Source: Rhodohalobacter halophilus
GTDB taxonomy: Bacteria > Bacteroidota > Rhodothermia > Balneolales > Balneolaceae
Direction: 5' to 3'
DNA: 64,000 nt
Assembly (NCBI RefSeq): GCF_001715195.1
Contig: NZ_MDWE01000022.1
Location: forward strand, 62,001-126,000
How positions within the stretch are numbered: the stretch's first letter is position 1; each line of letters begins with the position of its first letter. Both the position numbers and the translations under genes were made by a program. The notes below the pieces were generated by a model. It was given only the letters and a program-made list of their open reading frames with translations. It was not told the DNA's origin and did not search any database. This document shows, one piece after another, positions 47,182 to 57,647 of the stretch.

Positions 47182-50172
47182 ATGAAGGTAAAACAGCTAC
47201 TCAGCCTGCTTTTGATCCTGTTCTTTTGTTCATACGCTCTGCCGGCGCATGCACAATCTGAACTTACGGTCAGTGGTACGGTTACAGAATTAGAAACGGG
47301 TGAACCTTTACCCGGTGTGAACATCACCGTAAAGGGATCGCCGGATCGGGGTACAACAACAAACCTCGATGGTGAATACTCACTTAGAGTGGGAGCCGAT
47401 GAAGTATTGGTCTTTTCATATATAGGTTTCGTAACTCGCGAAATACCGGTTGACGGTCGGGAACAAATTGATGTTCAAATGAGCACGGATGTTCAAGCAC
47501 TGTCAGAACTGGTTGTTATCGGTTATGGTGTTCAGGAACGTGGTGATAATACCGGTTCCGTACGGGTAGTTAGCTCCAGAGACTTTAATCAGGGCGCTAT
47601 CACCTCTCCGGAAGAACTATTCCAGGGTCGTGCAGCCGGTGTTCAGGTTACAACAAACAGCGGTGCACCCGGTGCCGGAGCAACGATCCGTATTCGCGGT
47701 GGCTCTTCCCTCTCAGCCAGTAACGACCCTCTCTACGTTGTAGACGGCATTCCTCTGGATGACGGCGGCATTTCCGGTATGAGAAGTCCTTTGAACTCCA
47801 TTAACCCGAACGACATTGAGTCAATCACCGTACTGAAGGATGCTTCTGCAACCGCCATTTACGGTTCTCGTGCGTCAAACGGTGTGATTATCATTACCAC
47901 CAAGAGAGGACAAACCGGACAGGATATTCAAGTGAATTACACCGGACGGTACTCATATCAGACAAACTCTGATCGAATTGATGCACTAAGTGCTGAAAGG
48001 TTCCGGCAGTTTGTAGAAATTGGTGTTAATAACGGCAATATTCCATCAGGTGCTCTGAACACATTGGGCAACAGCCAAACTGATTGGCAGGATGAAATTT
48101 TCCGAAACACTTTCAGCCAGGATCATAACATTAGTGTAAGTGGTGCAGTCGGAGATCTTCCTTATCGTGCATCTTTAGGATTTTCAGGAAATCAAGGTGT
48201 ACTTAAAACCTCTTATAATGATCGATTAACAGGATCCATTGCATTGAATCCGACTCTGTTTGATGACCAATTCTCCATCGAACTGAACGCCAGAGGAACA
48301 CGAGTTGACAACAGATTTGCTGATCAGGGTGCCATTAACACTGCTATCAACTACGACCCGACTCAACCTGTAATGTCCGGTAACAGCCAGTATGGCGGGT
48401 ATACCGCTTGGTTAGACGGTGATGGAAATCCAATTCCAATTGCACCGGCCAATCCGGTTGCACTGATTGACCAGCGCAGAGATGAGTCTACTGTTTACCG
48501 ATTAATCGGTAACGTGAAACTGGATTACAATCCTTCTTTCTTTGAAGATCTGACAGCAACTCTTAACCTTGGAATGGACTACTCTGATGTTGGAGATGGG
48601 AAAGTATTGGTAAGTGATGAAGCAGCCTATGCTTTTGACGGACAAGGACTTTCCGGTGTTCAGACCGATTATGATCAGAAAAAGGAGAATGAACTTCTCG
48701 ACTTTTACCTGAACTACAATACAGATCTGCCTTCCATTGAAAGTCGTCTGGATTTAACGGCCGGTTATTCATGGGAACACCACTATGAGGAGGGTTCAAA
48801 CTACTCAACAAACTTCGACCGCTCCCAGGCTGTACGTGTAGACTCAGATACTCAATACAAAACTGAGTACTACATCACATCATTCTTTGGTCGTGCCAAC
48901 TACACGCTGATGGACAAGTATCTGTTTACAGGTACGTTGCGTTATGATGGTACCTCACGTTTTTCTGAAGATAATCGCTGGGGACTCTTCCCATCTTTTG
49001 CATTTGCATGGCAGATGCATAAAGAGAGCTTTTTGGAGCAGTATGACAACCTGAGTGAATTGAAATTACGATTAGGTTACGGTGTTACCGGTCAGCAGCG
49101 AATTGGACAGGGTAACTACCCTTACCTGCCGCAGTACACATACGGACAGAATACTGCTCGCTATCCTTTTGGCACTGAATTTATTACAACACTGCGACCA
49201 GAAGGATACAATTCTGAGCTGAAGTGGGAGGAGACAACCACATACAACGTAGCTCTTGATTACAGTTTCAACAACGAGCAGGTTTTCGGTTCTATTGAGT
49301 ACTACCTCCGTGAAACAGATGATCTGCTTAACGTGATTCCTGTACCTGCAGGTACAAACTTTACGAACCGAATTCTTTCAAACGTAGGTTCACTTGAGGT
49401 ACAGGGTTTGGAGTTTGACATTACAACTAGACTGTTATCAACCGAGAACACCTTCTGGCAGGTAACGTTCAACACATCTTATACAATTGATGAGATCACC
49501 AAGCTTACAACAGCTGACGATCCAACATATGTGGGTGTGGAAGTTGGTGGAATTGCCGGCGGTACCGGTAACATGGTACAGGTACACAGTGTAGGCTATC
49601 CAAGAAATTCATTCTTCGTTTATGAGCAGGTATATGATCAAACAGGTGCTCCAATTGAAGGGCTGTATGTAGATAGAAACGGAGACGGCGTTATTGATGA
49701 AGCAGACAAATATCGATACAAGAGCCCTAATCCGGACTTAACATTTGGCCTCTCCTCCCGTTTTGAATACAAGCAGTGGGATGCATCTTTTTCTGCACGA
49801 GCAAACGTTGGGAACTACGTTTATAACAATGTAGCGTCTGACCGAGGCTTCTACAATTCAGTGTATAACACTGCAGGATACACGATGAATCCTACTGAGT
49901 ACATTTATGAAACAGGGTTCAGAACGGCTCAATACAGATCCGACCACTATGTTGAAAATGCATCTTTTGTAAAACTGGACAACGTTTCAGTAGGATACAC
50001 ATTTGACAGTCTGTTTGATCTGGTTTCTTCAATGAGAGTATCTGCTACGGTACAAAATGTATTTACAATTACGGAGTACAGCGGGCAGGATCCGGAGGTA
50101 TTTGGTGGAATTGACTTCAACCTCTATCCACGGCCACGCACCTTTTTGTTGGGACTCAATCTCAACTTTTAA
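47182..50172 (+). CDS. SusC/RagA-family TonB-linked outer-membrane transporter
   Basis: A 996-residue TonB-dependent transporter of the SusC class. The signal peptide ends near AHAQS (residue 25). A carboxypeptidase-regulatory-like domain follows (VSGTVTELETGEPLPGVNIT to about residue 105), then the plug with GYGVQERGDNTGSV, IRIRGGSSLSASNDPLYVVDG and ILKD-like VLKDASATAIYGSRASNGVI. A 22-strand-type barrel ends in PRPRTFLLGLNLNF. It imports oligosaccharides across the outer membrane together with the SusD lid. The neighbouring GH13 amylase, SusE and LacI genes point to starch or maltodextrin. It heads a plus-strand operon with susD and susE. Confidence 0.95.
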   Translation: MKVKQLLSLLLILFFCSYALPAHAQSELTVSGTVTELETGEPLPGVNITVKGSPDRGTTTNLDGEYSLRVGADEVLVFSYIGFVTREIPVDGREQIDVQMSTDVQALSELVVIGYGVQERGDNTGSVRVVSSRDFNQGAITSPEELFQGRAAGVQVTTNSGAPGAGATIRIRGGSSLSASNDPLYVVDGIPLDDGGISGMRSPLNSINPNDIESITVLKDASATAIYGSRASNGVIIITTKRGQTGQDIQVNYTGRYSYQTNSDRIDALSAERFRQFVEIGVNNGNIPSGALNTLGNSQTDWQDEIFRNTFSQDHNISVSGAVGDLPYRASLGFSGNQGVLKTSYNDRLTGSIALNPTLFDDQFSIELNARGTRVDNRFADQGAINTAINYDPTQPVMSGNSQYGGYTAWLDGDGNPIPIAPANPVALIDQRRDESTVYRLIGNVKLDYNPSFFEDLTATLNLGMDYSDVGDGKVLVSDEAAYAFDGQGLSGVQTDYDQKKENELLDFYLNYNTDLPSIESRLDLTAGYSWEHHYEEGSNYSTNFDRSQAVRVDSDTQYKTEYYITSFFGRANYTLMDKYLFTGTLRYDGTSRFSEDNRWGLFPSFAFAWQMHKESFLEQYDNLSELKLRLGYGVTGQQRIGQGNYPYLPQYTYGQNTARYPFGTEFITTLRPEGYNSELKWEETTTYNVALDYSFNNEQVFGSIEYYLRETDDLLNVIPVPAGTNFTNRILSNVGSLEVQGLEFDITTRLLSTENTFWQVTFNTSYTIDEITKLTTADDPTYVGVEVGGIAGGTGNMVQVHSVGYPRNSFFVYEQVYDQTGAPIEGLYVDRNGDGVIDEADKYRYKSPNPDLTFGLSSRFEYKQWDASFSARANVGNYVYNNVASDRGFYNSVYNTAGYTMNPTEYIYETGFRTAQYRSDHYVENASFVKLDNVSVGYTFDSLFDLVSSMRVSATVQNVFTITEYSGQDPEVFGGIDFNLYPRPRTFLLGLNLNF

Positions 50173-50197
50173 TTGAAACACCTTAATCTTGACGATT

Positions 50198-52117
50198 ATG
50201 TTGATTAACAAATTTAGATTCTTAATACTCGCACTTGTCGGGCTAACGGTTGCGTTCGCCACGTCATGTGTAAACGATCTGAACACATCGCCGATTGACG
50301 ACAATGTTGTCACATCTGCTAATGTGTATGATACTCCTGACGATTTCCGCCAGGTTTTAGCAAAACTATATGCAGGGTTTGCAGCTACCGGCCAAGAAGG
50401 ACCGGCCGGTAATGCCGATATCCAGGGAATTGACGAAGGTTTCTCAAGTTACATTCGTCAGCTTTGGGTCCACCAAACCATTACAACTGATGAAGCAGTT
50501 GTTGGCTGGAATGATGAAGGTTTACCGGAATTCAATTACCACACCTGGACCCCCTCCAACGACTTCGTGATGGGAATGTACTCTCGTATTTTTTACGAAG
50601 TAACTCTTACCAACGAGTTTATAAGGGAAGCACAACAACGTGATGAGAATATCATCAAAGAGATGGAAGCTGAAGCTCGCTTCCTTCGTGCACTCAGTTA
50701 CTGGCATGCTCTGGATCTCTTTGGCGGCAATGTTCCGTTTGTAACAGAAGAAGATCCGATTGGAGCTTACATGCCTGAACCAACCAATTCACAGGATCTA
50801 TTCAACTATATTGAAAGTGAGTTGCTTGAAATTCAGGATGAACTTGCAGCACCCGGCCAGAATGAGTATGGTCGTGCCGATCGCGGTGCTGCCTGGACAC
50901 TTCTTGCAAAACTCTACTTAAACGCTGAAGTTTATATAGGCCAGGATCGCAACAGTGATGCCCTCACCTATGCCGAAAGAGTCATAAATGAAGGCGGCTA
51001 CGAATTAGCTGACAATTATGAGCATCTCTTTCTTGCTGACAACGATACAAATCAGGGAACAAATGAAATCATCTTCCCTATCCGTTTTGATGGAGATAAC
51101 CTTCAGACTTTCGGTGGAACAAACTTCATTATCCACGCAGCGATTGGTGGTAATATGAGTGCATCTGCTTTTGGTATGGACGGTGGTTGGGCCGGTCACA
51201 GAGTAACTCCTGAATTTGTGTCACTCTTTGATGATTCAGACCTTTTTGAAGGTACTCAAACAGAGAATACCGGAGGATACCCTGAAATCTATGTTCCGGG
51301 TGGCTACCAGGCTGCCAGTGGTTATGGAGGTGATTGGTCACCTGGAGATGCACCGGCTCTGATTTCTGAAAACAGCAATGATGTTTACACCGGTTTGGTT
51401 TATTTTGCAAACCCCGGTTCTGAATTCAAGTTCACCCCATCTCCTTCTTGGGACGATGGTGATTATGGTGGATCAAATGGAACCTTAACGAACGGTGGTG
51501 ACAATATAACCGTAAGTGAGGCCGGCCTATATGAAATCACTGTTGATCTTAACAACATGACGTACCAACTCGAGATATCCGCTTCAGAAGGACGTGCTAT
51601 GTTCTACACAGATGGGCAGTCACTTGAAATTGATGAACTCGGTGAATTTACCAATGGTTACGCAGTAACCAAGTGGAAGAACATCACTTCTACCGGACAA
51701 CCGGGTAAGCGTCTTGAATTTGCCGACACCGATTTTCCAATGTTCCGTTTAGCTGATGTGTATTTGATCTACGCAGAAGCAACTGTACGCGGTGCATCAG
51801 GCGGAAGTTCAACAACTGCAGCTAACTACATTAATGAACTGCGTGAAAGAGCTTACGGAAGTGATATTGCAAACATCACGTCATCCGATCTCGATCTGGA
51901 CCTGATTTTTCAAGAACGTACCAGAGAGCTCTATTGGGAAGCACACAGACGTACGGACCTCAGACGATTCGGTCTATACACAGGCAGCGATTATGTGTGG
52001 TCATGGAAAGGTTCATCTCAGGAAGGAAGTGGAACTAGCAACCACTACGAAATATTCCCGATTCCATCTTCAGATATCAACTCAAATCTGAACCTGACCC
52101 AGAATCCGGGTTACTAA
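50198..52117 (+). CDS. SusD/RagB-family lipoprotein with an inserted SusE/F-like domain
   Basis: A 639-residue surface lipoprotein (lipobox ATSC near residue 25). ATG 50198 is preferred over an in-frame TTG three codons upstream. The N-terminal TPR part (YDTPDDFRQVLAKLYAGFA, EAEARFLRALSYWHALDLFGG) and C-terminal part (FPMFRLADVYLIYAEA, RTRELYWEAHRRTDLRRFG) are normal SusD, where glycan is bound at the SusC lid. At about residues 358-465 an extra beta-sandwich is inserted, beginning YPEIYVPGGYQAASGYGGDW. It is nearly the same as the first SusF-type domain of the downstream SusE protein. Most SusD proteins are 500-580 residues, which fits an insertion of about 100. The insert probably adds a carbohydrate-binding surface. 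Confidence 0.92.
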   Translation: MLINKFRFLILALVGLTVAFATSCVNDLNTSPIDDNVVTSANVYDTPDDFRQVLAKLYAGFAATGQEGPAGNADIQGIDEGFSSYIRQLWVHQTITTDEAVVGWNDEGLPEFNYHTWTPSNDFVMGMYSRIFYEVTLTNEFIREAQQRDENIIKEMEAEARFLRALSYWHALDLFGGNVPFVTEEDPIGAYMPEPTNSQDLFNYIESELLEIQDELAAPGQNEYGRADRGAAWTLLAKLYLNAEVYIGQDRNSDALTYAERVINEGGYELADNYEHLFLADNDTNQGTNEIIFPIRFDGDNLQTFGGTNFIIHAAIGGNMSASAFGMDGGWAGHRVTPEFVSLFDDSDLFEGTQTENTGGYPEIYVPGGYQAASGYGGDWSPGDAPALISENSNDVYTGLVYFANPGSEFKFTPSPSWDDGDYGGSNGTLTNGGDNITVSEAGLYEITVDLNNMTYQLEISASEGRAMFYTDGQSLEIDELGEFTNGYAVTKWKNITSTGQPGKRLEFADTDFPMFRLADVYLIYAEATVRGASGGSSTTAANYINELRERAYGSDIANITSSDLDLDLIFQERTRELYWEAHRRTDLRRFGLYTGSDYVWSWKGSSQEGSGTSNHYEIFPIPSSDINSNLNLTQNPGY

Positions 52118-52147
52118 TCGTAACAAACATTTTAAAGTATTATAGTC

Positions 52148-53203
52148 ATGAAAAAATCAATTATATCGTTATTAGCGATTTTCGGACTGCTGGTCTTCAC
52201 CTCGTGTGAAGATACAGCGGGACCGGTGATGGAAGGGGCTCCCGAAGCACCCGAAATTACTGAGCCAACTTCCGGTTCTTCCTTTGTATTAAACGAAGAG
52301 GACATGGACGTAGAAATGGACATGATGGAGTGGTCAGCAGCAGATTTTGGATTTAGTGCTGCTGTTGAATACACCATCCAAATGGACATGGAAGGAAATT
52401 CATTTGAAGAGCCTGTTGAAATTGCCAAAGTACGAGGGAACAAATACTCTCCTACTGTTGGAGATTTGAATACCAAGTTACTGGCAGCAGGTCTTCCGTT
52501 TGGAACAGAGTCTTTAGTTCATTTTCGAATCAAAGCAGAAGTGAGCAGCAATGTACGTGCAGTATACTCACAGCCGGTTCAAGTGGGAATTACTCCCTAT
52601 GAATTTGAAGTAACTTATCCCGAAATTTATGTACCGGGTGGATACCAGTCGGCGAGCGGTTACGGAAATGATTGGACTCCTGAAGACGCACCTGCCCTTT
52701 ACTCTATCAATAGCAATGACCGCTATGAGGGATATGTCTACTATGCTAATGATAACCAAGAGTTCAAATTCACAGCAGACAGATCCTGGGATCTGAACTG
52801 GGGTGATGACGGTGCCGATGGTACTCTGCAAGAAAACGGCGCGAATATCGTAATGGAAAATGCAGGATACTATAAGGTTAATGTAGACCTCAACAACTTC
52901 ACTTATACTCTGCTTTCTACTGATTGGGGAATTATCGGTGATGCAACTCCGGGTGGCTGGGATGCTGATACAGATATGACCTATGATGTAGACGATAAGG
53001 TCTGGAGAATAACCATTAACCTTAACGAAGGTGAAATGAAGTTCCGAGCAAATGATGCCTGGGATCTGAATTATGGTTCTGACGACGCAAATGGCACACT
53101 GCAACCGGGCGGTGGAAACATTCCTGTTGAAACTGCAGGAAACTATACAATTGAGCTTGATCTTACAGGTCCAATTTACAGATACTCGTTAGAACTTAAC
53201 TGA
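52148..53203 (+). CDS. SusE/SusF-type outer-membrane starch-binding lipoprotein
   Basis: A 351-residue lipoprotein with lipobox FTSC near residue 20. The N-terminal SusE domain (about 25-150; PEAPEITEPTSGSSFVLNE) is followed by two SusF-type binding domains. The first (about 153-255) begins YPEIYVPGGYQSASGYGNDW, and the second (about 256-351) begins WGIIGDATPGGWDADTDM. Each repeats a W-D-L-N-x-G-x-D-x-x-x-G-T-L motif, the usual ligand-side loop in SusE/F domains. It binds alpha-glucan at the cell surface to feed the SusC/SusD transporter. It is the last gene of the operon, followed by a strong terminator. Confidence 0.92.
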   Translation: MKKSIISLLAIFGLLVFTSCEDTAGPVMEGAPEAPEITEPTSGSSFVLNEEDMDVEMDMMEWSAADFGFSAAVEYTIQMDMEGNSFEEPVEIAKVRGNKYSPTVGDLNTKLLAAGLPFGTESLVHFRIKAEVSSNVRAVYSQPVQVGITPYEFEVTYPEIYVPGGYQSASGYGNDWTPEDAPALYSINSNDRYEGYVYYANDNQEFKFTADRSWDLNWGDDGADGTLQENGANIVMENAGYYKVNVDLNNFTYTLLSTDWGIIGDATPGGWDADTDMTYDVDDKVWRITINLNEGEMKFRANDAWDLNYGSDDANGTLQPGGGNIPVETAGNYTIELDLTGPIYRYSLELN

Positions 53204-53230
53204 GTAGTGTAGTTAAGTAATGATACCTGA

Positions 53231-53267
53231 AAGCCCGTCCGGCGAAAGCTGGACGGGCTTTTTTTTA
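53231..53267 (+). terminator. Strong rho-independent terminator of the sus operon
   Basis: AAGCCCGTCC (53231-53240) pairs with GGACGGGCTT (53251-53260) around GGCGAAAGCT, itself closed by GC-GAAA-GC. A run of T follows. It lies 27 bases after the susE stop. Confidence 0.95.
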
Positions 53268-53268
53268 C

Positions 53269-53342
53269 CACTCGTGGCAAGCCTTAGAGTCGTGCCACGA
53301 GTATTCTGTGTAATCCTTAAATCTGATAAATCCGCGTATCTC
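53269..53342. repeat. Direct repeat, left copy
   Basis: CACTCGTGGCA...CGTGCCACGAG...ATAAATCCGCGT; the first part is an internal palindrome (CTCGTGGCA/TGCCACGAG). A second copy, roughly 80 percent alike by eye, begins at 53684. Confidence 0.8.
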
Positions 53343-53391
53343 TTCGCAATTCAATAATTTATCTTTTGAGCTTATCCATTGAACAATCAAA

Positions 53392-53573
53392 CCTACTCAG
53401 TAGGAGTAAACTGTTTGTAGTATTTTTACCCAGCCAAGTAAATGATGGCTCCGTAGGAGCCTCCTGTTTGAAGAATAACAGAGAGCCATCAACACCAAAG
53501 CACCGTTAGATACTTCCATCCGAATGTTGATGTTTAAAACAAATACAGAATTACAGGGCGCTCCGATGGAGCG
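53392..53573. repeat. Cluster of three short palindromes between the direct repeats
   Basis: CCTAC-TCA-GTAGG (53392-53404), GGCTCC-GTA-GGAGCC (53447-53461) and CGCTCC-GAT-GGAGCG (53559-53573). The first two are followed by CTGTTTGnAG, so they look like members of one small repeat family. No protein-coding stretch is supported here. Confidence 0.7.
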
Positions 53574-53683
53574 GTTGAATTGATTGGGTGTACATTTTCT
53601 AAAGACAGGGTTTTCCTACGGAATATGGGATAAATCGAATCATTACATTGATGCTCAAAATTTAAGAAAACTATGTTCTAAAA

Positions 53684-53756
53684 CACTCGTGGCACGGCTG
53701 GCAGACGTGCCACGAGGAGTCTGCGTAATCCATAAATCCGATAAATCCGCGTCTCT
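53684..53756. repeat. Direct repeat, right copy
   Basis: Second copy of the 53269 repeat with the same inner palindrome and the ending ATAAATCCGCGT. Its last bases reach into the stop codon of the amylase gene on the minus strand. Confidence 0.8.
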
Positions 53757-56640
53757 ACTTGATAAGTGTCATCTTTTCCGACACTACCTGACCGCCTTGC
53801 TTCAAGCGTGCGATGTAAACCCCACTGCTCAATCCGGAGGCATCAAACTCTTCCGTAAACACTCCCCTTGGATGATTGTCTTCCTGAACCAGCGTTGTTA
53901 CACGTCGTCCCAAAACATCATACACTTCCAATGTAACAGATCCGGCTTCCGGCACTTCATATTTGATCTGTGTTGAAGGATTAAACGGATTCGGATAGTT
54001 CGAGTCAATCGAAAGCTCCCGAATCAACTGGCCGAAATCGTTCTCTCCTACCTGGAAAAAGACATTCTCTTCAGCAGGCTCTACAAAATCACTTGTATAG
54101 ATTCGAACTTCGCCCGGTGCCAGATTAAACGTTTGACGAACATTTCCTACGTCAAGACTATTTCCGGTTACAAACTCATGCCACTCTCCCTGCTGTGTAA
54201 AGTCAACGGTTGCATCACGGAAGAGCACACTGAAATTTCCGACAATCACTGCGTCCATATCTTCATGTTGTAGACGTATCCACTTGATTCCGCTGCCAAG
54301 TGATGCTTCAAATTCTGTTTCCGCACTGCTGAATACCGGACTTGAGTGGCGAAGCCTCAATAGTTCAGACCATGTTCTGTACAGTCGGAATCTGTTCTCT
54401 TCATTATAATAGCTCCAGCGCACTGGTTTTACATCCGTACGTCCAGGATCAGAACCCATACACGCTCCGTCTGATCCGTCACCCGGTTTCAGGCACTCAC
54501 CGGGACCACCTCCGTAACCCAACTCTCCAAATTGCCAGAGCATCTTGGGGCCCGGAATGGTAAAGAAAAACGATCCGGCAAGTTTCTGACGATTCAATGC
54601 TACATCAAGGTCGGTTACATTGTGATTATCATTAAGATCATTCCCAAAATTGAGATTTCTGAACATCATCCACTGCTCATCATGGCTTTCCATATATCCA
54701 ATCAAATATGGATTATTCCAGCCTCGGTTTTGGTAGAAAACTCTTGAGAAATCAGACTCTTCAGTAAAACCCATCGAAGCCTGATTGTAGCTGTGATTCT
54801 GATTTCCCCATAGCAGCATACCATAATCGGATAGTTCTATCTCTTCAGAATCCGCACCCAGGTGCTCCAGAATTATATATGCGTCCGGATCTACGGCCCA
54901 CATCTCGTCCGCCATTCTCTTCAGGTTAGCAATGCGTTCGGCATTGTACCCATCCAGTAATGACCGGTTATCAACGTTAGATGCAAAACCTTTGGAGAGG
55001 TCAAACCGGTATCCATCAACGTTGTACTCTTCGAGCCAGTAACGGTTCATCCGATCGAGCCAGTACTGTATATAGGGATGATCGTGATTGAGGTGATTAA
55101 ACACGTTATATGCGTGTTCCGGCCCAATCAATGGGTTTGAATTCCGATCTGAACCGTAAATTCGAATCAATGGAGAGTTATCTTCGGCATGGTTGTAAAC
55201 AACATCAAGCAGTACGGCAATTCCCCTGGAGTGAGCTTCATCGACAAATCGCTTGAAAGAATCTTTTGAACCATACGCTTTGTCCAGCGCTCCGTGAAAT
55301 ACAGGATTATATCCCCAGCTCAGATTACCGCTAAATTCGGAGACCGGCATTAGCTCGATGGCATTCACTCCCAGATTTTCCAGGTAGTCAAGCGTGTCGG
55401 CAAGCACGTCAAATGAGCTCTCTTCGACAAAATCTCGGAGAAGCAATTTGTAAACAACCAGTTCCTCTTTCTCCGGCCGCTCGAAATCAGGGATTTGCCA
55501 TTCGTACTCCTCCCTCCCCGGTTCGATAACGGTAACGGCATGCTCAGTCAGTCCGCGGGGGTATTCGGGCATGTCCGGGTAGATCGATTCATCAATAAAT
55601 GGATCGTTGTGCCTGTCGAGTACCAATTCTGAAAAGAGATCCGCAACGCGTATTTCACCGTCTATAAAATATTGCAGGCGATAAATCTCACCGGGAGTCA
55701 GATCATTCAGCGTAATCCAGAAACGGTTTCCGGTTGGATCGGAATCATCCAGATTCATGAAATATTCTTCACTGATTTCCCAGTCCGTCATATCCCCAAT
55801 CAGATAGGCAAACTCCTGGTCCGGTGCGTAAAATGAAAAAGTTACAGTTGAGGGATCTTCGTGGTAGTGAATCCCGTCTTCAATTCCGGACGGCCTTGCC
55901 TGTACATTCACCTCCGGATTCACCATAATGTAGAGCGAGTCTCCTTCAACATTCCCCTGATCGTCTTCTACTTCAACATAAAAATCCGTTCGTCCGGAAT
56001 CGGTTACCTCGTAATCATACTCTAGTGTTGTTTCAGTTGTTGTAACCAGTTCTGCATCTCCTTCATACAGCGTGAAGGATTGTATGGGATTGGTGGATGA
56101 TGCTTCTGCCTGCAGGTTAACCGTTTCGCCCACTTCAGCAAAATACGGATTTAATGCAGATACATCCGGCCTGGTAAACCGAACCAGCAGCTCTTCTTCG
56201 TAGAGGTCGATAAAGAGATCATCTGTTTGGGAATTACCATTCGAACTTCGAATAACCATTGCTATTTGGTATATCTTCTCGACCGATTCCGGGATGTCAT
56301 AAAAATCACGGATATTGTCAATCTCAAGCTCCCACCGATCATTACCCAAACTTGTGAACTGAGGCTGAACATTATTATCCCCCCATGTACCAATCACATA
56401 CTCCCAAGAACCGGAATCCTGATCTTCTTCAGAAATAATCACACCTGTATGTGCATATAGATTTCCTGTATATCCTTCCAAATCACCGCGGGGATCTTCT
56501 GATGCATCATAGATTATTCTAAGCGGTTGATCTTCAGTTGGAAATATCGGTTCTGTCGTGATCATCTGCCCGATAAGCGACTGGGAAGACAGAAACAGGA
56601 TGATGAATAGGAAAATGGTTTTTAAAAATCGTGTTTTCAT
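53755..56640 (-). CDS. Secreted GH13 alpha-amylase with C-terminal sorting domain
   Basis: A 961-residue secreted glucanase. After a signal peptide (1-25) there are a beta domain (about 28-150), an Ig-like domain (about 155-242) and a CBM48-like E-set domain (about 245-345; FAYLIGDMTDWEIS). The GH13 barrel then follows (about 390-830). Conserved regions are DVVYNHAE (I), GYRFDLSKGF with nucleophile D547 (II), IILEHLG with acid/base E592 (III) and ESHDEQ with D654 (IV). A Por-type sorting domain ends the protein (NYPNPFNPSTQ, LGRRVTTLV, GVYIARLKQ). It likely degrades starch-type alpha-glucan outside the cell or at its surface. The start overlaps the lacI stop by 4 bases. Confidence 0.92.
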   Translation of the reverse strand: MKTRFLKTIFLFIILFLSSQSLIGQMITTEPIFPTEDQPLRIIYDASEDPRGDLEGYTGNLYAHTGVIISEEDQDSGSWEYVIGTWGDNNVQPQFTSLGNDRWELEIDNIRDFYDIPESVEKIYQIAMVIRSSNGNSQTDDLFIDLYEEELLVRFTRPDVSALNPYFAEVGETVNLQAEASSTNPIQSFTLYEGDAELVTTTETTLEYDYEVTDSGRTDFYVEVEDDQGNVEGDSLYIMVNPEVNVQARPSGIEDGIHYHEDPSTVTFSFYAPDQEFAYLIGDMTDWEISEEYFMNLDDSDPTGNRFWITLNDLTPGEIYRLQYFIDGEIRVADLFSELVLDRHNDPFIDESIYPDMPEYPRGLTEHAVTVIEPGREEYEWQIPDFERPEKEELVVYKLLLRDFVEESSFDVLADTLDYLENLGVNAIELMPVSEFSGNLSWGYNPVFHGALDKAYGSKDSFKRFVDEAHSRGIAVLLDVVYNHAEDNSPLIRIYGSDRNSNPLIGPEHAYNVFNHLNHDHPYIQYWLDRMNRYWLEEYNVDGYRFDLSKGFASNVDNRSLLDGYNAERIANLKRMADEMWAVDPDAYIILEHLGADSEEIELSDYGMLLWGNQNHSYNQASMGFTEESDFSRVFYQNRGWNNPYLIGYMESHDEQWMMFRNLNFGNDLNDNHNVTDLDVALNRQKLAGSFFFTIPGPKMLWQFGELGYGGGPGECLKPGDGSDGACMGSDPGRTDVKPVRWSYYNEENRFRLYRTWSELLRLRHSSPVFSSAETEFEASLGSGIKWIRLQHEDMDAVIVGNFSVLFRDATVDFTQQGEWHEFVTGNSLDVGNVRQTFNLAPGEVRIYTSDFVEPAEENVFFQVGENDFGQLIRELSIDSNYPNPFNPSTQIKYEVPEAGSVTLEVYDVLGRRVTTLVQEDNHPRGVFTEEFDASGLSSGVYIARLKQGGQVVSEKMTLIK

Positions 56641-57647
56641 GTTGTTACTTCATTTACATTCTCTGTGGATGAGCGTATGACTAATTCCGGGTGGTGAACC
56701 TCATTGCTGATTCGCAGATCAGGGTTGTGCAATCGTTGAATTAGTTTATTGGTTGCTCGGAAACCCATGTCATACATCGGCTGATTTACAGTAGAAAGGC
56801 CGATATATTCTGAAATAGTCAAATTATCAAAGCTGATAAGCGGAAGATCCACCTTGTGCTCTTTAAGTGCTTTTTGGGCCCCGACTGCTTTTGTATCCGA
56901 TGTACAAAAAACCGCATCCGACAATGGATCCATCGCCAAAATTTTGTTCATTGCCTCGTAGCCGCTCAGTTCTGTGAAACCGTCCCGGGCCATGTCATCA
57001 CCGGTTACCACAAGGCTCTCGGAAAACTCAATTCCATGCTCATCAAGTGCCCTTTTATACCCCTTTAATCGATCACGAATAGGGATAGAATCTGCCTTAG
57101 CAGACAAAATTGCGATGCGCTTAAAACCTTTCTCAATCAAATATTCAGTCGCCAGGTAAGCTCCCTCCTCGTTGTTGAAGCTAACAGAGTCAAATATTGT
57201 GCTGAAATCATCCACAAGGCAAACAGGCACATTAAACTTCTGAAGTGCTTTAAGCTCCTTCTCAGAAAAGTGAAGGGACACCAACAAATACCCTTCGGCC
57301 CAGCGTTTTTTCAGCGTTTCTGCCACTTGATTATAGGCATCCTTTTTATGGCCAATATTTACAATATTCAGCTCATAATTCTCTTCAGCCAAACTATCCT
57401 GAATCCCTTTCAACACCTCAGTAAAAAAGTAATTCGACATGACCGGAGCCAGCATTACAATCCGATTCTTTTTTTTACTAGCCAGCCCCTGAGCATAAAC
57501 GTGAGGGTGATACCCCATCTCATCAACTACCTTTAACACTTTTTCTCGCGTTTCCGGCTTTACGCTTTCAGCTTGGTTAAATACCCTGGAAACAGTTGCG
57601 ATACTAACACCGGCCGCTTTGGCTATATCATAGATTGTTTTTGACAA
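56637..57647 (-). CDS. LacI-family transcriptional regulator
   Basis: A 336-residue repressor. The N-terminal HTH is TIYDIAKAAGVSIATVSRVFNQ, with the hinge GYHPHVYAQGLASKK. The C-terminal periplasmic-binding-protein-like domain carries VMLAPVMSNYFFTEVLKGI, LVDDF and LPLISFDNLTISEY. It is encoded with the amylase in one minus-strand unit. A perfect operator-like palindrome lies 68 bases upstream of its start, and related sites precede susC, so autoregulation and control of the whole locus by a sugar are likely. The ligand, probably maltose or a maltodextrin, is inferred from context. Confidence 0.93.
   Translation of the reverse strand: MSKTIYDIAKAAGVSIATVSRVFNQAESVKPETREKVLKVVDEMGYHPHVYAQGLASKKKNRIVMLAPVMSNYFFTEVLKGIQDSLAEENYELNIVNIGHKKDAYNQVAETLKKRWAEGYLLVSLHFSEKELKALQKFNVPVCLVDDFSTIFDSVSFNNEEGAYLATEYLIEKGFKRIAILSAKADSIPIRDRLKGYKRALDEHGIEFSESLVVTGDDMARDGFTELSGYEAMNKILAMDPLSDAVFCTSDTKAVGAQKALKEHKVDLPLISFDNLTISEYIGLSTVNQPMYDMGFRATNKLIQRLHNPDLRISNEVHHPELVIRSSTENVNEVTT

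Follow-up and report, generated by a model that had tools for sequence, protein, structure and literature searches.

The closest described counterparts of the protein analyzed here are SusD from Bacteroides thetaiotaomicron (PDB entries 3ck7-3ckc) and a SusD-like protein from B. vulgatus (PDB entry 3jys), which share its fold throughout the core (Z 47-51) and its starch-locus context; unlike the present SusD, however, neither contains an inserted starch-binding domain. Domains of the inserted type are known from SusE and SusF of B. thetaiotaomicron (PDB entries 4fem, 4fch and 4fe9), with which the insert shares its fold (Z 9.0-11.5) and, via an alignment with Sca5, the same two-tryptophan site. 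In SusE and SusF several such domains follow an Ig-like domain on a lipoprotein distinct from SusD, whereas here one of them is built into SusD. The same fold class (Z about 10) and the tryptophans are also found in the X25 modules of Bacillus acidopullulyticus pullulanase (PDB entry 2wan), which is matched by a sequence profile of insert-type domains with an E of 5.2e-5, and of Ruminococcus bromii Sca5/Sas20 (PDB entry 7rpy); these modules, however, are attached to enzymes or scaffoldins, and Sca5 X25-2 uses two modules per site. For the alpha-glucan PULs of marine Flavobacteriia, SusD proteins of a 'looped' and an 'open' type have been described; there too a loop near the ligand site varies, but it comprises about 17 residues and not a whole binding domain (PMC11093988). 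In levan and dextran systems the surface glycan-binding protein (SGBP) sits on the lip of SusC as a protein of its own, whose mobile glycan-binding domain has been described as a 'grappling device', and in the starch utilisome one SusC probably cannot accommodate SusE, SusF and SusG together, SusEFG being scarcer than SusCD (PMC7618045). In starch uptake, the interplay of SusCD with the separate surface glycan-binding proteins is an open question.

In this study, a window of 64,000 nucleotides from Rhodohalobacter halophilus was analyzed, in which positions 47182-57647 form a starch-type (alpha-glucan) uptake locus. Its forward strand encodes a SusC/RagA TonB-linked outer membrane transporter of 996 residues (47182-50172; TIGR04056, 758 bits, and TIGR04057), a SusD-family lipoprotein with an inserted domain (50189-52117) and a SusE-type lipoprotein of 351 residues (52148-53203), the last of which consists of a PF14292 domain and two SusF_SusE/X25 domains, namely domain 1 (52616-52921), the type that the SusD insert resembles, and domain 2 (52922-53200), which is of another type. 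These are followed on the opposite strand by a secreted GH13 alpha-amylase-like enzyme with a type IX secretion sorting tail (53755-56640; PF00128 and PF18962) and an adjoining LacI-family regulator (56637-57647; PF00356 and PF13377). The susD reading frame lies directly after that of SusC and has 642 codons when counted from a TTG at 50189, although an ATG at 50198 is the likelier start; the N terminus reads ...FATSC, ending in the lipobox cysteine at residue 27. The intergenic DNA 3' of susE holds two similar copies (53270-53335 and 53685-53755) ending in 'gtgccacgag...taatcc.taaat..gataaatccgcgt', which possibly represent a dispersed repeat.

The SusD core is divided into two parts. The N-terminal part (mature residues 27-350; 50267-51238) and the C-terminal part (residues 467-642; 51587-52114) together match PF07980 with 128.9 bits against a cutoff of 23.1, and NF033071 (SusD) matches the core in two stretches with 461 bits, which is under its own cutoff of 725. 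When the PDB was searched with phmmer, residues 47-350 and 467-642 aligned with residues 5-307 and 319-499 of the insert-free 3jys, with just 11 chain residues between the two alignments; residues 351-466, about 115 in number, are therefore extra, and the insertion as a whole spans about 51239-51586. In alignments with orthologues that have no insert, residues 3-350 and 466-642 are matched and practically adjoin, the empty sites of these orthologues read like VTPEFVEKFD-LEN-DGRALFF, and the insert sits exactly in that loop. It begins with a linker (51239-51277) containing a G-x-x-T-x-N-type sequence, which is common to most Balneolaceae inserts and is not found in SusE, and continues with the SusE/SusF-type (X25-like) putative starch-binding domain itself (residues 364-464; 51278-51580). 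The original prediction of about 100 extra residues between the SusD halves is thus borne out, and the limits that it gave (51265-51595) were close to those obtained here. The alternative that this stretch is an ordinary SusD segment is ruled out by the 3jys alignment, the empty-site orthologues and the superposition of the core described below.

The segment was predicted by AlphaFold2 to be a separate beta domain outside the SusD fold, as had been proposed from the sequence, both in the full-length protein and alone. The full-length model, built on 55 aligned homologues, had a mean pLDDT of 89.4 and a pTM of 0.88, with values of about 93-97 over the inserted segment; folded alone, the insert reached a pLDDT of 96.3. 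Superposition of the core model on 3jys covered 455 residues at 1.6 A (Z 50.9), and that on B. thetaiotaomicron SusD gave a Z of about 47; since neither of these proteins has an insert, the SusD fold is complete without it. In a Foldseek search with the insert alone, the top ten matches were all starch-binding or amylase-associated (probability 0.95-1.00), the next having a probability of 0.15. The top five matches by VIA-align were SusF (Z 11.5), Sca5 X25-2 (10.4), pullulanase X25 (10.2) and SusE (9.3 and 9.0), with Z of 7.4 or lower beyond these; the two SusE structures hold maltoheptaose (Z 9.3) and alpha-cyclodextrin (Z 9.0).

The kinship of the insert with the neighbouring SusE is also evident from the sequence. 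The motif YPEIYVPGGYQAASGYGGDW begins at SusD residue 364 (51278), and its SusE copy begins at residue 157 (52616), with 18 of 20 residues shared, in agreement with the near-identical starts noted originally. Over the whole domain, the insert and SusE domain 1 are 61-64% identical, and in a search of the host genome SusE domain 1 was the second-best place for the insert, that is, the best match apart from the insert itself (64% identity, E 1.2e-34); a further match outside the locus, on contig C24, was weak (E 0.4) and was set aside. The insert matches the Pfam family SusF_SusE (PF16411) with 37.3 bits against a cutoff of 27.5, and the X25 model PF22058 with 21.0 bits, under its cutoff of 27. 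The SusE N-terminal Ig-like domain, PF14292, was matched only in the neighbouring SusE and not in SusD, so that what was inserted is a SusE-type domain and not a SusE protein. The two DNA copies are 58% identical, with a pS of 0.94 against a pN of 0.28; synonymous sites are saturated, which upholds the earlier view that the event is old and the protein sequence kept. Recent gene conversion from SusE is ruled out by this saturation and by the grouping of the inserts with one another rather than with their own SusE. Comparison of the insert with that of its nearest orthologue (pN 0.13, pS 0.83) indicates purifying selection.

Two tryptophans of the insert, W383 (codon 51335-51337) and W421 (codon 51449-51451; numbering of the 642-residue SusD), are present in all 17 Balneolaceae insert rows, which stem from 12 proteins and from duplicate records of these; 14 of the rows also retain K414. 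When a profile of the domains, rather than the single insert, was searched against the PDB, W383 and W421 aligned with two tryptophans of Sca5 X25-2 that are 41 residues apart; the equal spacing identifies this pair as W620 and W661, which have been named as belonging to a starch site that is also conserved in SusF (PMC9112005). The pair is nearly invariant in inserts from outside the Balneolaceae as well, while much of the other sequence varies. Judged by its sequence, the insert carries the two-tryptophan ligand platform, and from its fold and these conserved residues it likely binds glycan. About 17 residues separate W334 of the core from the beginning of the insert. By the phmmer alignment, W334 is the equivalent of the B. 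thetaiotaomicron SusD ligand-site tryptophan W320, which is kept, while two other aromatic ligand positions of that protein are replaced (Y296 by F308 and W96 by V105).

The distribution of the insert was surveyed in 92 Balneolaceae genomes, 20 of which hold 21 SusD orthologues. In 12 of these the insert is present, free of stops and in frame; Gracilimonas amylolytica LA399 (L100) and Fodinibius halophilus 2W32 (L108) are among the carriers. The other nine, some of them in the same genus as carriers, have a clean empty site. An assembly artefact or chimera is ruled out by the occurrence of the same in-frame insert in 12 genomes, named strains among them. In a wider genome collection the 80 best homologues were examined; this list was ranked by similarity to a carrier and so over-represents inserts. 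Twelve of its members have no insert, five (Balneolaceae) have a single domain of the SusE domain 1 (d1) type, eight (mostly Flavobacteriaceae) have a single domain 2 (d2)-like domain of the 'WGLVGSAT' type, and 55 (mostly Saprospiraceae, together with Bacteroidales, Prolixibacteraceae and others; one cut by a contig end) have d1 and d2 in tandem. All insert classes in this list occupy the same SusD site, and in both the tandem and the flavobacterial SusD proteins Pfam detects internal SusF_SusE domains, which are absent from an insert-free orthologue. In an even sample of the phylum outside the Balneolaceae, comprising 75 genomes with a SusD at E <= 1e-70, the insert was present in five genomes (three single and two tandem).

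As one or two such modules occupy this site in relatives from several bacterial families, the insertion in the SusD lid is real and is widespread rather than unique. The original prediction of a lid with an extra SusE-type domain as an undescribed architecture therefore stands as to a distinct and genuine architecture. The lid is not one of a kind, however: most homologues lack the segment, yet it is not confined to this genome. The component parts are known, and the composite lid is apparently undescribed in the open-access literature searched, in whose full texts no SusD fusion or insertion of the present kind was found; a description may stand in subscription papers or domain-architecture databases. 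In two SusD-like reading frames of 624 residues from one genus (L194 and L195), the same loop holds a different insertion of about 90 residues (...FGNPISSFDYYQTKNKN...GDKRLS...), in which a SusE-type domain was not detected. The loop thus seems to tolerate insertions generally.

The SusD of this locus is a composite lid, in which a complete core carries an X25-like module of the SusE domain 1 type in the loop after W334, and we consider that this module acts, with good probability, as an extra alpha-glucan capture site. Using W383 and W421, the module would hold an alpha-1,4-glucan at the lid or close to it, so that each transporter would gain its own capture site at a fixed 1:1 ratio, beside the SusD cleft and the separate SusE; upon closure of the lid, the held chain would be handed to the SusD cleft and then into SusC. 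Counted against this explanation are the many starch-type loci in which SusD has no insert and the faster evolution of the insert, which is 80% identical to that of genome G023 where the core is 86% identical. Fodinibius species are described as starch-hydrolysis negative (PMC9909488) although F. halophilus carries the insert, so that the ligand in nature may be a different alpha-glucan, such as glycogen or maltodextrin.

In Sca5, an X25 module on its own showed no binding, whereas the pair of modules bound (PMC9112005), so that a lone inserted module may be weak or may need a partner, either SusE or a second tandem module. This behaviour, with two X25 modules of Sca5 X25-2 on one ligand, favours an account in which the insert is half of a two-lobed clamshell site formed with a SusE domain or a tandem neighbour, and also docks SusE onto the lid; most inserts outside the Balneolaceae are moreover tandem d1 and d2, in the order found in SusE. 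SusE and SusF modules, however, bind singly (PMC9112005), and four genomes (G023, G046, G081 and G091) keep the insert beside a very diverged SusE, which argues against a tightly co-evolving pair; we regard a two-lobed site as rather unlikely. A structural spacer, or a docking piece for SusC or SusE in which glycan binding is no longer needed, would fit the unrelated insertion of L194 and L195 and the longer loop of Bacteroides SusD at this site, which indicates that bulk is tolerated there, but this role is made improbable by both platform tryptophans being kept in an otherwise largely variable domain. The high local similarity to SusE of the same operon might further suggest that SusE DNA was duplicated, neutrally or as a product of the assembly, and that the copy has no maintained role. 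Relaxed selection, however, is not seen in this comparison, in which the protein is kept at saturated synonymous sites, and the insert is in frame and stop-free in all 12 carriers, so that such a duplication is hardly credible.

A composite lid with an extra capture site would bear on the cooperation of surface glycan-binding proteins with SusCD, since a SusD with one or two built-in SusE-type modules is a natural fusion that fixes their stoichiometry and place, for which the insert-free orthologues provide matched controls. A module within the lid would also sidestep the apparent limit set by the docking surface on SusC. PUL annotation with one family name per protein overlooks composite lids.

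The inserts of the Balneolaceae form one clade (support 100/98) that adjoins Balneolaceae SusE d1 (97/87), in a tree whose deep forks are weak, as it comprises 62 rows and 101 columns. The SusD cores that carry these inserts, by contrast, fall into three groups, and their union in a single clade is rejected (AU p 0.0009). Because the inserts form one clade and their cores do not, insert loss or lateral spread is indicated, and the pattern fits a single origin of the Balneolaceae insert, after which it was either lost several times or passed laterally between susD genes; sliding identity around the insert gave no raised similarity between carriers and no sign of a transferred susD tract. In the tree of the cores, the tandem forms group as one clade; tandem inserts of the Saprospiraceae and others may descend from the same event as the Balneolaceae insert or from a parallel one. 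The inserts of flavobacteria cluster with d2-like domains and represent a different domain type. Unless the two single forms each derive from one half of an ancestral pair, this points to two captures or more.

A separate capture of SusE d1 in the Balneolaceae is to be weighed against an origin of these inserts as remnants of a tandem d1 and d2 that lost d2. The insertion site is the same, the Balneolaceae linker is by eye closer to the linker of the tandem forms (...PNPGG...) than to that of SusE, and an AU test does not reject the union of Balneolaceae inserts with those of tandem d1 in a single clade (p 0.19). The tree, however, places the Balneolaceae inserts with Balneolaceae SusE d1 and not with tandem d1, a grouping that is likewise not rejected (p 0.66), and a remnant origin is accordingly entertained here as a possibility only somewhat below even. 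We are evenly divided on a broader reading, in which SusD lids have a recurrent mobile insertion site that accepts up to two X25 modules or none, and at times inserts of other kinds, so that surface glycan binding would be wired into the lid at 1:1 with the transporter and repeatedly gained and lost, including by lateral exchange.

Further observations concern the surroundings of susD in related genomes. At five loci (L063, L064, L071, L072 and L078) SusD is very similar to the present one (85% for G023) and SusE is strongly diverged (<=42% identity, with domains at about 20-45 bits), a pattern that would arise from exchange or rapid evolution of SusE. Reading frames of about 600-635 residues near susD at L130, L142, L153, L158, L159, L160, L164, L166 (minus strand) and L157 (8482-10386) encode five tandem SusE/SusF-type domains each. 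Finally, one genome of the same genus (G007) has two insert-free susD copies on separate contigs (L017/L103 and L075/L109).
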